From positions 1-64,000 of the forward strand of contig CAIOIZ010000145.1 in NCBI GenBank assembly GCA_903858475.1: a stretch of 64,000 nt of DNA, read 5' to 3'. Below the pieces are notes generated by a model. That model did not search any database. It was not told the origin of the DNA and was given only the letters and a program-made list of their open reading frames with translations. Numbering within the stretch: position 1 is the first letter of the stretch; each line of letters opens with the position of its first letter. A program made the position numbers and the translations under genes. Below are positions 56,496-64,000 of this stretch, piece after piece. This DNA is from an uncultured Bacteroidota bacterium. Its GTDB lineage: Bacteria > Bacteroidota > Bacteroidia > Chitinophagales > Chitinophagaceae.

Positions 56496-56596
56496 GAGGT
56501 TGAGGTTGAGGTTGAGATTGAGGTTGAGGTTGAGGTTTAGGGGTTTAGGGGTTTAGAGGTTTAGGGGTTTAGAGGTTTAGGGGTTTAGAGGTTGAG
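56496..56596 (+). repeat. G-rich hexamer and octamer tandem array
   Basis: Seven GAGGTT-type hexamers (56496-56537, one variant GAGATT) run into eight octamers (A/G)GGTTTAG (56533-56596; the last is AGGTTGAG). The G-tract octamers could form G-quadruplexes. The array starts directly after the queA terminator. Confidence 0.9.
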
Positions 56597-56633
56597 GCAT
56601 TCAAGAGTTAAACCTATTGCAATTTGAAGGCTA

Positions 56634-56664
56634 ACTTCCAACCTCCAACATTCAACCTCCAACC
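56634..56664 (-). repeat. C-rich counter-array, inverted relative to 56496-56596
   Basis: On the minus strand the segment reads as 7-mers GGTTGGA, GGTTGAA, TGTTGGA, GGTTGGA. It lies 37 bp beyond the G-rich array and is oriented opposite to it, so the two arrays bracket a short unique core without any gene. Confidence 0.75.
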
Positions 56665-60821: not shown

Positions 60822-61280
60822 ATGATTATACGCAAAGCAAAAATAGAAGATGCAGCTGCTATGATGGACCTTATCAAAGAATTGGCAGTTTATGAAAAAG
60901 CTCCCAATGAAGTAACGGTGCAAATGGAGCATTTTATTGATGCTGGCTTTGGACCACAACCAGTTTGGTGGGCATTTGTTGCAGTAGATGACACTCCATT
61001 AGGTCAACCGGTAGTAGCCTTTGCACTGTATTATATTCGCTATAGCACCTGGAAGGGACAAAGAATGTATTTAGAAGACCTATTGGTAACAGAAAAAATG
61101 AGGGGGAAAGGCATTGGCAAATTATTATTTGATGCCCTGATACGAGAATGCAAGGATAAAAATTTCAATGGCATGGCCTGGCAGGTTTTGGACTGGAATG
61201 AACCAGCGATTAATTTTTATAAAAAAATCGAGGGCGTCTATTTTGACGAAGAGTGGGTAAATTGCAGTCTCAATTTTTAG
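60822..61280 (+). CDS. GNAT family N-acetyltransferase
   Basis: 152-residue acetyltransferase. Acetyl-CoA-binding motif A is [23 protein letters not shown] (about 85-105), with motif [18 protein letters not shown] near the C-terminus. The pattern is closest to diamine (spermidine/spermine-type) or amino-acid acetyltransferases, but the substrate is undetermined. It ends 20 bp before the icd start on the same strand, so the two may be co-transcribed. Confidence 0.93.
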
Positions 61281-61300
61281 AACAATTATTTGACCCTATT

Positions 61301-62611
61301 ATGTCTGCAAAAATTACCTTGGGTAGCAATGGAAAGCTCCTCGTACCCAATCATCCAACGATACCATTTATTGAAGGCGACGGCATTGGTCCGGAAATAT
61401 GGAAAGTAGCGCAGAAAGTATTTGATACAGCTGTAGCAAAGGCCTATAATGGCGAAAGAAAAATTGAATGGAAAGAAATGCTGGCAGGAGAAAAAGCATT
61501 TAAACAAACAGGGGAATGGTTACCTGCTGCAACGCTTCAAACTGCAAAAGACTATATTATTTCCATCAAAGGACCATTAACTACTCCCATTGGTGGTGGC
61601 ATTCGCTCATTGAATGTTGCTATGCGCCAGGACCTTGACCTATTTGCCTGTGTAAGACCAGTGAAATGGTTCAAGGGTGTTCCCTCACCTGTTATTCATC
61701 CTGAGCAAGTGAATATGACCATCTTTAGAGAGAATACAGAAGACATCTATGCAGGTATTGAATGGAAGGCTGGTTCACCAGAAGCCATGAAATTCGAAAA
61801 ATTTTTATTGGAAGAAATGGGTGTTACCAGTGTTCGTTTTCCCGGCGATTCTAGTTATGGAGTAAAGCCGGTTTCTTCACAGGGAAGTAAAAGGTTGGTA
61901 AGGGCTGCCATTAAATATGCACTTGAAAATAACCTACCCTCCGTAACCTTGGTACACAAAGGAAATATTATGAAATTCACAGAGGGTGGCTTTAAGAATT
62001 GGGGATACGAAGTTGCGCGACAAGAATATGGGGACGCTACTTTTACCTGGGACGAATGGGATCAGTTGAAAAAACAATTTGGAGAAGCGCATGCCAACGA
62101 AATGCAACGCAAAGCCCTGCATGATGGAAAATTACTTGTAAAAGACATGATTGCCGATAATTTTTTACAGCAGATATTAATTGCACCAAAAGATTTTTCA
62201 GTAGTTGCTACACTAAATTTGAATGGCGACTATATCTCCGATGCATTGGCTGCAGAAGTGGGTGGTATTGGAATTGCCCCCGGAGCAAATATCAACTATA
62301 ATACTGGTTATGCTGTATTTGAAGCTACCCATGGCACTGCACCTAAATTTGCAGGTACCGATAGTATGAATCCATCTTCTGTTATTTTAAGCGGCTGTAT
62401 GATGCTGGAGTATATGGAATGGAAGGAAGCTGCTGAGCTTATCTCTTCCGCGTTACAAGCCGCCATCATGCGCAAGAGAGTTACCATCGATTTCTATAAC
62501 TTAATGAATGGTGCCACGCTATTAAAAACTAGTGAGTTCGGCGATGAAATTATTGCCAATATGGGGGTGGTAATAGGTGATGCGCAGTTAAAGAAAAGTA
62601 GTAGTCTGTAA
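61301..62611 (+). CDS. icd: NADP-dependent isocitrate dehydrogenase, E. coli Icd type
   Basis: 436 residues from the ATG at 61301 ([13 protein letters not shown]); the frame extends to 61253 inside the GNAT gene, which I reject. Oxidative decarboxylation of isocitrate to 2-oxoglutarate. Blocks: [14 protein letters not shown], the substrate/phosphorylation loop [37 protein letters not shown], the [13 protein letters not shown] region and [14 protein letters not shown] with NPSSVILSG. This is the subfamily I enzyme. A second, subfamily II isocitrate dehydrogenase lies 635 bp downstream. Confidence 0.95.
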
Positions 62612-62632
62612 TGTTGTGGAGGGGTTGAGGAC

Positions 62633-62670
62633 GGATACTGGATTCTGGATACTAGATACTGGATGCTAAG
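62633..62670 (+). repeat. Left heptamer array of the four-helix-bundle cassette
   Basis: Consecutive 7-mers ACTGGAT, TCTGGAT, ACTAGAT, ACTGGAT, GCTA.. after a leading GGAT. It is the inverted partner of 63156-63199. The stop codon (TAG) of the minus-strand gene (62666-62668) is contributed by this array. Immediately upstream is GGGGTTGAGG (62621-62630), like units of the array at 56.5 kb. Confidence 0.85.
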
Positions 62671-63043
62671 ACGGGAATTCATTATGACTACGGTCTACTG
62701 CTATGATAAAATTTTGGAGCTTTTTCCCTAAATGTTCCAGTTTTTGGTGCAATGAGTGATAAAGGATTTCATCTTTTAAAGAGGCAGTTTCAAAGAGTAT
62801 TTCAAGATGGTCAATCGTTTCATCATTTGAGGATAATGAATAAATGAGAAACTTTATAAACGCTGCTTTATACCTTCTTCTTCCATAACCTTCCACTATA
62901 CAACTCCTAACTGTTTTACTTGATCTTCTGATTTGCTGCGCTTCTTCAAATTGTTCAAATTTTGGTAGAAGTAAAGTCATTTTATGAATCTCTATTGTCA
63001 GATCTCGAGATATTCGCCATATTTCCAAGTTTTTGTAACTCAT
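62666..63043 (-). CDS. Four helix bundle protein (23S rRNA IVS / S23 family)
   Basis: About 125 residues from the ATG at 63043 ([15 protein letters not shown]). The pattern [21 protein letters not shown], the central [20 protein letters not shown] (Ser-Asn-IAEG-like signature with IVEGYGR) and the final LxxLxxxLxxFI helix match the S23/bAvd-type four helix bundle family. First found in ORFs of rRNA intervening sequences; relatives serve diversity-generating retroelements. No reverse transcriptase or variable gene is seen. The gene is bounded by inverted heptamer arrays and has a GTAGCA/TGCTAC hairpin (63055-63078) just upstream. Function unknown. Confidence 0.88.
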
Positions 63044-63155
63044 GAATATTCCTTGTAGCACCAAATTAATAATGCTACCCTCCGATTTTATTTAATCCTG
63101 CCTGTATTACCAACCAAAAAATCCTGTTTTTTAACCCAGAACCTAGCACTACTTT

Positions 63156-63199
63156 CCAGTATCTAATATCCAGTATCTAGCATCCAGCATCCAGTATCC
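63156..63199 (-). repeat. Right heptamer array of the four-helix-bundle cassette
   Basis: Minus-strand 7-mers ACTGGAT, GCTGGAT, GCTAGAT, ACTGGAT, ATTAGAT, ACTGG. Read inward from both ends, the outer 32 positions match the left array at 30 places. It ends 25 bp before the -7 element of the downstream gene. Confidence 0.85.
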
Positions 63200-63223
63200 C
63201 TTCCCACTTTCCCTTCCTTGATG

Positions 63224-63246: not shown

Positions 63247-64000
63247 ATGGCAAAAATAAAAGTTACCAATCCTGTGGTAGAATTGGATGGAGATGAAATG
63301 ACCCGCATCATCTGGAAATTTATCAAAGACAAATTAATTCTTCCCTACTTGGATGTGCCCATTCAATATTTTGATTTAGGGATGGAGTATAGGGATGAAA
63401 CCAATGACCAGGTTACCATCGATGCAGCGAATGCCATCAAGGCATGTGGGGTAGGTATCAAATGTGCTACCATTACACCTGATGAAGCAAGAGTAAAAGA
63501 GTTTAATCTCAAACAAATGTGGAAGAGCCCCAACGGCACCATTCGCAATATTCTAGATGGCACTGTATTTAGAGAACCCATTGTGATGCAAAATGTGCCC
63601 CGACTAGTAACCAATTGGACAGCCCCTATCATTGTAGGCCGTCACGCATTTGGCGATCAATATCGTGCAACCGATACCGTTATTAAAGGAAAAGGCAAAT
63701 TAACCATGACTTTTACACCTGAAAACGGTGGCGAGCCCCAAGTATTTGAAGTATACAATTATAAAGGCGATGGTGTTGCCATGGCCATGTATAATACCGA
63801 TGAAAGTATTTATGGTTTTGCCAGAAGTTGCTTTAATATGGCACTCAGTAAAAAATGGCCCCTCTATCTTTCTACCAAAAATACCATTCTGAAAAAATAC
63901 GATGGTCGTTTCAAAGACATCTTTGAAGAAGTGTATCAAAATGAATTCAAAGCGGCTTATACTACTGCTGGTATCACTTATGAGCATCGATTGATTGATG
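63247..64000 (+). CDS. NADP-dependent isocitrate dehydrogenase, eukaryote-like type (3' end outside window)
   Basis: At least 251 residues; the frame is open to the end of the window. N-terminus [20 protein letters not shown], then [36 protein letters not shown] and the substrate loop region around [26 protein letters not shown]: the pattern of homodimeric subfamily II isocitrate dehydrogenases as in eukaryotes and some bacteria. It catalyses the same step as the subfamily I enzyme upstream. It should reach roughly 400-410 residues beyond the border. Confidence 0.95.

Follow-up and report, generated by a model that had tools for sequence, protein, structure and literature searches.

The stretch of DNA analysed here, hereafter the window, comprises 64,000 nucleotides from an uncultured member of the Chitinophagaceae (assembly GCA_903858475.1, contig CAIOIZ010000145.1, positions 1 to 64,000) and contains, near its end, a lone gene for a four-helix-bundle (4HB) protein of the S23 type. 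The gene (62666..63043, minus strand), characterized by profile match, AF2 model and dN/dS, belongs to PF05635/TIGR02436 and encodes 125 amino acids when read from the ATG at 63043; a TTG 21 bp upstream would yield 132. As the initial annotation had proposed, it lies between two dehydrogenase genes, both matching PF00180. The left neighbour, icd1, of the isocitrate/isopropylmalate dehydrogenase family (61253..62611, plus strand), likely starts at the ATG at 61301, several homologues aligning from residue 17, and the right neighbour, icd2 (63247..64000, plus strand), extends past the window end and was used as the anchor for comparing the site among genomes.

The same annotation had placed the 4HB gene between opposed tandem heptamer arrays, a description that withstood renewed analysis. 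TRF located a left array, (GGATACT)n on the plus strand, downstream of the gene (62633..62668), and a right array upstream of it (63155..63199, minus strand), which reads (TCCAGTA)n on the plus strand and is the left array inverted. In addition, the left array does supply the stop codon of the gene, this being the complement of 62666-62668, inside the last partial unit. A repeat search recovered the arms as a 39-nt inverted pair, 87% complementary and spaced by 503 nt, with 34 matches over 39 aligned columns, which fits the 30 of the outer 32 positions counted earlier. They score 29 in alignment, whereas none of 1000 dinucleotide shuffles exceeded 18 and none of 407 same-geometry placements at other positions of the window exceeded 15. 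Terminal inverted repeats enclosing an ORF (here 39 nt, 87%) are a mark of the intervening sequences (IVS) of 23S rRNA, and inverted cognate repeats flanking a gene are one of RAYT/REPIN systems; the window has both, and the latter arrangement is found often, not always, at 4HB genes elsewhere.

At a separate place in the window (56496-56664), arrays of GAGGTT / GGTTTAGG are followed 35 bp on by an opposed AACCTCC array with no gene between them. Their polarity is the same as around 4HB genes, and no GAGGTT unit occurs at the three 4HB genes of this genome.

The four-helix-bundle protein

The window protein scores well above the curated cut-offs of both families (81.9 bits against 33.8 for PF05635, 83.1 against 24 for TIGR02436), and a Y1/HUH transposase domain is absent, PF05635 being its sole Pfam match at E ≤0.001. 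The AF2 monomer model (pLDDT 94.7) has the fold of the solved members, the best match in the PDB being Xcc0516 (2gsc, TM 0.83-0.87), and that to BT_0352 (2rld) reaching TM 0.75-0.76 by query length. In the available text of PMC4990558, the X. campestris 4HB protein is described as a homopentameric torus and S23 proteins as being without known function. In the three of 15 pairs with unsaturated dS, dN/dS was 0.075-0.092, a range which indicates that the window protein is under purifying selection; the S23 protein of one 23S IVS, in contrast, is presented in the accessible part of the same source as probably not expressed and in reductive evolution (PMC4990558).

Avd, a protein of diversity-generating retroelements, is a more distant relative in fold, with a weaker match (4dwl, TM 0.63-0.76, E 0.07-0.19). 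Unlike in those retroelements, no match to the reverse transcriptase profile PF00078 was found in the eight genomes with a cognate gene, namely G000 (the window genome, 96% complete), G018, G010, G050, G028, G052, G020 and G023, the assemblies being incomplete. A telomere-like addition of repeats driven by reverse transcriptase was rejected on the same result, and carriage of the cassette by phages was rejected too, the window protein having no match in the phage collection.

A further observation concerns fusions. In other members of the genus, at L043, L048, L049, L188, L193, L194 and L199, and partially at L200 and L209, the 4HB ORF continues in frame into a RidA-like domain, the QT-rich linker between the two reading like a translated array; Pfam confirms both domains in L048 only.

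Arrays at the icd site and beside other four-helix-bundle genes

Comparison of the icd site covered 30 icd2 loci of the 54 genomes with a match, and only GGATRCT-type and GTTTGG units were sought there. An adjacent icd1 is present at 17 of the 30 loci. A 4HB gene lies in six of these 17 pairs, three times in either orientation, and a GTTTGG hairpin without a gene in two; the other nine have neither unit, five of them with gaps of 11-211 bp. The initial annotation, in reading the unit as a mobile or RNA-processed cassette, had called for empty-site alleles; both gene-less and array-less alleles are in fact present. Moreover, its concern that relatives might carry the gene here without arrays was not borne out, all six carriers having them, G020 in a diverged GGATGCC form (by eye).

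Among the sampled genomes of the genus the cassette is found mainly at the icd site: of the eight that encode a protein close to that of the window, seven carry it beside icd2, the exceptions being the eighth, G010, and also L053, a named contig. The G010 protein, 80% identical to that of the window, is encoded elsewhere, beside a GTPase-like gene (by eye), and clusters with the copy at the icd site of G018 with a support of 92/88, short of the tool's star; if this grouping is right, the cassette has moved. By eye, the sequences between the icd genes yielded no definable target-site duplication.

Some of these loci have peculiarities of their own. The icd-icd site of L157 (G053) holds two small ORFs, antitoxin-like and PIN-type-like by eye, and no 4HB cassette. 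The contig of L142 (G021:C227) starts within an array, upstream of icd2, of 11 CATCCAG-type units, and the contig break may have removed a cassette, if there was one. At L153 (G052) and L095 the 4HB copy of the icd site looks truncated or broken, and L153 has units on both strands.

The association extends beyond this site. The window genome has three PF05635 genes, all three bracketed and each by a different unit, with AGTTTTT and GTTTAG-type units making up the inverted arrays at the other two. PF05635 matches occur in 56 of 59 genomes of the genus, often several in each, and the sample of the phylum has them in 90 of its 118 genomes. Altogether 212 loci were entered, 132 from the genus, in which at least some 18 further places match, and 80 on named contigs, which span several phyla and were the best 80 among 172 relatives; L253 gave no ORF match, and 220 ORFs were reduced to 216 on removal of identical ones, 10 of them shorter than 90 amino acids. 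Arrays were measured by a self-similarity score for periods 4-12 in 500-bp flanks, with a threshold score of 14, and counted for the 196 4HB genes with at least 300 bp on both sides, N runs being discounted.

By this measure an array lies on either side of 132 of the 196 4HB genes, compared with 16 of 163 other genes taken from the named contigs as controls. The proportion is similar in the two samples (55/80 in the named contigs; 77/116 in the genus, that is, 78 minus one N run in L244), and arrays on both sides were found at 56 of the 196 (27 in named contigs, 29 in the genus) vs 3 of the 163 controls. As control flanks contain more coding sequence, lone Y1 transposase genes of the genus were added as a further control, and none of 20 had a real tandem array, one N run being discounted; Y1 transposase was consequently rejected as the general owner of the arrays. 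The prediction that short arrays flank 4HB genes far more often than other genes was upheld in each of these comparisons and in that with plasmids described below.

Bracketing is common, not universal. Tandem arrays were weaker among 30 high-scoring genes sampled across the phylum (9/33 rows). Inverted similarity between the two flanks of the same gene exceeded the cross-locus 95% level in 20 of 30 genes of this sample, in 74 of 123 of the genus and in 16 of 83 of the named contigs, where shared units raise that level, and in 6 of 20 Y1 controls; an earlier version of the flank test had placed 30 of 112 4HB genes above the 99% level of the control. Cultured strains also have the arrays, e.g. 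Psychroflexus and Aequorivita (L060, L064, L084, L087, L091), and no array was found beside the 4HB gene of L097, also a named strain.

Among plasmid records the window protein has 23 matches, all below 60% identity, and the best 15 of these 23 are all cyanobacterial. An array is present on either side in 12 of these 15 4HB genes and on both sides in 8, or in 11 and 7 of 14 when L364 and L365, copies in one strain, are counted once, whereas among 55 further ORFs, from 90 kb of two such plasmids, only 2 have an array and none has two. Inverted similarity of the own flanks lies above the cross-locus 95% level at 8 of the 15 loci. The units include AACAGGG, AGGGTGT and GCAGAGGA; repeats of cyanobacteria go by the name of STRR. 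In L357 (Pseudanabaena plasmid pPg_01), the 4HB gene lies between annotated cas6 and cas4 genes, with long AAAAGCT arrays on both sides in the same orientation, not inverted.

Repeat units, protein clades and dispersed arrays

The arrays are narrowly defined in unit length, periods 7, 9 and 8 accounting for 186 of 189, and one of the remaining three being an N run; their median sizes are 6.6 and 5.3 units. For the 78 genes with two arrays, the upstream array and the inverted downstream array of the same gene gave a 6-mer cosine of 0.45, above 0.2 in 70% of cases, vs 0.044 with the downstream arrays of other genes and 0.088 with the own downstream array read forwards. Hence, where both arrays exist, they are usually inverted copies of one another, as they are in the window. 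Upstream arrays have G>C on the coding strand in 81 of 92 cases and downstream arrays C>G in 91 of 107, with reversed polarity in 11 of 92 and 16 of 107, respectively, and mainly direct-orientation flanks at some loci (L080, L105, L357). Units usually differ from gene to gene, and sharing is not commoner within a genome (6 of 138 same-genome gene pairs) than between genomes (4.1% of 5857 pairs).

Repeat units are distributed according to protein clade. When mapped on a tree of 84 4HB relatives from 11 groups with phylum names, the four unit classes require 11 changes, vs a mean of 26.7 and a minimum of 22 in 300 shuffles (n=69), the classes having been defined after viewing the arrays and 15 of the 84 rows, including three on long branches, being without a class. 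Period 7 vs 9 needs a single change, compared with 7.7 when shuffled (n=71). Likewise, a Mantel test between array and protein similarity gave r 0.53 against a permutation maximum of 0.09 (n=150), array similarity falling from 0.50 at >80% protein identity to about 0.01 at <40%. Such congruence would also arise from linked inheritance alone. Furthermore, relatives with the same unit occur in different phyla and icd neighbours are found at only six of the fetched loci; therefore, the gene and its arrays seem to travel together.

Arrays of the same units also occur at other places in the genomes. The window genome has GGATRCT arrays at five further places, intergenic and gene-less by eye, and AGTTTTT arrays at eleven, with zero matches to the reversed control patterns of both. 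Across the 59 genomes, GGATRCT arrays are present in all eight with a close relative of the window protein vs 10 of 51 without (Fisher p 2e-5), those ten holding 141 of 496 matches, 85 of them in G046. Similarly, of the 10 genomes in which the L048 protein has a relative (≥55% identity), 5 contain at least 10 GTTTGG matches, vs 2 of the 49 others (p 0.0009). The two, G005 and G017, have many GTTTGG arrays without an L048 relative at 55%, five genomes with such a relative stay below the threshold, and the reversed GTTTGG pattern is not rare in the same genomes (e.g. G037, 62 vs 79). Co-occurrence of the cognate gene and dispersed arrays is thereby suggested, and becomes non-significant once phylogeny is paired: the icd2 tree, with 30 of the 59 genomes, provided 2 supported pairs only, none being opposite in direction at ≥1 match and a few of 200 pairings being opposite at ≥5.

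Some of the dispersed copies are themselves gene-less inverted pairs, as are REPINs. Both arms are present at 7 of 20 GTTTGG loci in G011, all seven in the polarity seen around genes, and at 4 of 20 GGATRC loci, three of the four in that polarity; the remaining 13 and 16 are single arms. The initial annotation had allowed that arrays might prove equally frequent without the gene. This concern is borne out in part: arrays do occur without it, and in 10 of 51 genus genomes lacking a close 4HB relative.

In another stretch of the window genome, L016 (G000:C85:1-334), arrays of GTTTAG, CTAAAAA and CATCCAG type adjoin one another (by eye) and resemble the units of the genome's three 4HB genes.

Candidate explanations and related systems

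The above suggests that the 4HB gene and its repeat are a little-studied pair and not a coincidence. The explanation that we favour, and hold to be somewhat probable, is a two-part genetic element in which the 4HB protein is paired with its own short tandem repeat, gene-less arrays being its satellites. In such an element the protein would most likely recognise its 7-9 nt unit as a single strand, of DNA or RNA, perhaps with one unit per protomer of the protein ring, a speculation which the median array sizes would suit. Gene and arrays would be inherited, and occasionally moved, as one cassette, while hairpins and single arrays of the same unit would spread through the genome without the gene. 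The coding copy and its gene-less relatives would therefore behave like RAYT genes and REPINs. The protein may be what causes the arrays to spread, yet, no catalytic domain being recognised in it, the chemistry would have to come from other enzymes.

The likeness to RAYT/REPIN systems lies in the lone gene between two inverted cognate repeats, in the dispersal of these repeats, some as hairpins, and in the co-variation of gene and repeat. There are nevertheless differences. The window protein is a four-helix bundle without a Y1/HUH match, and as it has no transposase domain, membership of that class fails, although the likeness in working stands. REPs, according to the available text of PMC3733652, are palindromes of 20-40 bp, whereas the repeats described here are tandem arrays whose units, unlike those of RAYT genes, usually differ from gene to gene. 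In addition, repeat abundance has been reported to track the cognate RAYT gene (accessible parts of PMC2817692 and PMC3116915), but such tracking is only suggested for the 4HB arrays (8/8 vs 10/51 and 5/10 vs 2/49 genomes, with few independent tree pairs).

The 23S IVS offer a second model, and their S23 ORFs belong to the same protein family. In the available text of PMC4990558, one IVS with an S23 ORF is excised by RNase III; its terminal inverted repeats form a 28-bp stem, and the ORF is closely preceded by two or three heptamers in tandem. By analogy, the window arrays could pair in the transcript, RNase III trimming the stem and the protein binding or protecting the excised RNA; indeed, the predicted fold of the cassette RNA pairs the arrays and is better than those of all 20 shuffles (z -3.69). 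However, the cassette lies between two dehydrogenase genes and not inside 23S rRNA, so that membership fails on location, and processing alone leaves gene-less arrays and single arms unexplained; we consider such an RNA element unlikely. The reading first advanced, a mobile or RNA-processed cassette, has accordingly fared unevenly: bracketing, inversion, empty sites and the link between unit and protein agree with it, and the occurrence of arrays without the gene does not.

Alternatively, the 4HB protein could bind RNA and control its own mRNA through the upstream array, the dispersed arrays being its regulon. The position of the arrays (a median of 49 nt from the start codon upstream and 15 nt from the stop downstream), the apparently intergenic situation of the five dispersed sites in the window genome and a conserved basic stretch around residues 37-60 of the protein would suit such a regulatory pair. 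We regard it as rather improbable, the inverted downstream copy having no evident role in it, the matches ranging from 2 to 199 among cognate-gene genomes, unlike a conserved regulon, and the cassette being present or absent at the icd site.

It is a shade more improbable that the association is passive, arrays generated by slippage or hairpin copying being hot spots where 4HB genes insert or survive. That arrays also exist without the gene, some as hairpins, and in genomes without a cognate would then be expected, but Y1 genes of the same genus do not lie in arrays, the unit follows the protein clade, and the genes of one genome usually have different units. Finally, an artefact of assembly or binning, or chance, can scarcely be credited: many of the relatives are metagenome bins, but the arrays also occur on complete cyanobacterial plasmids and in cultured Psychroflexus and Aequorivita (though not in L097), and the arms in the window exceed the shuffled and same-geometry controls.

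Dispersed intergenic heptamer arrays have been described in Xanthomonas (GGGAATC), Nostoc (GGGGA(T/C)T) and Beggiatoaceae (TAACTGA), those of Xcc forming 70 convergent pairs, with most arrays of four units (PMC4692102, PMC4679880, available portions). Unlike the arrays reported here, they are presented in those portions without a tie to a 4HB/S23 gene; the link is our inference. Xcc does encode a 4HB protein, Xcc0516 (2gsc), and by analogy the repeats of the three groups may be satellites of 4HB genes. In the full text of openly available journal papers, the only tie of PF05635/S23 genes to flanking tandem arrays was that of the heptamers of PMC4990558, and the accessible text of PMC2700814, PMC10053308 and PMC10910872 had no bearing on it. 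A wider proposal, possible though open to considerable doubt, is that PF05635 comprises phylum-crossing, ring-shaped, repeat-specific binders, each with its own 7-9 nt array, which propagate array hairpins through bacterial genomes although they have no transposase. The long-unexplained heptamer repeats in cyanobacteria, Xanthomonas and Beggiatoaceae would then derive from them, and the S23-bearing rRNA IVS would be one branch.

For the family as a whole, the repeat word beside each 4HB gene makes its function testable, and the diverse protein-word pairs would be a natural set for learning how 4HB proteins recognise sequence. The element also provides a possible cause for intergenic heptamer repeats described, in the available portions of PMC4692102 and PMC4679880, without one. 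If true, it would represent a second, independent invention of the RAYT/REPIN arrangement, by a protein without a recognised DNA-cutting domain.
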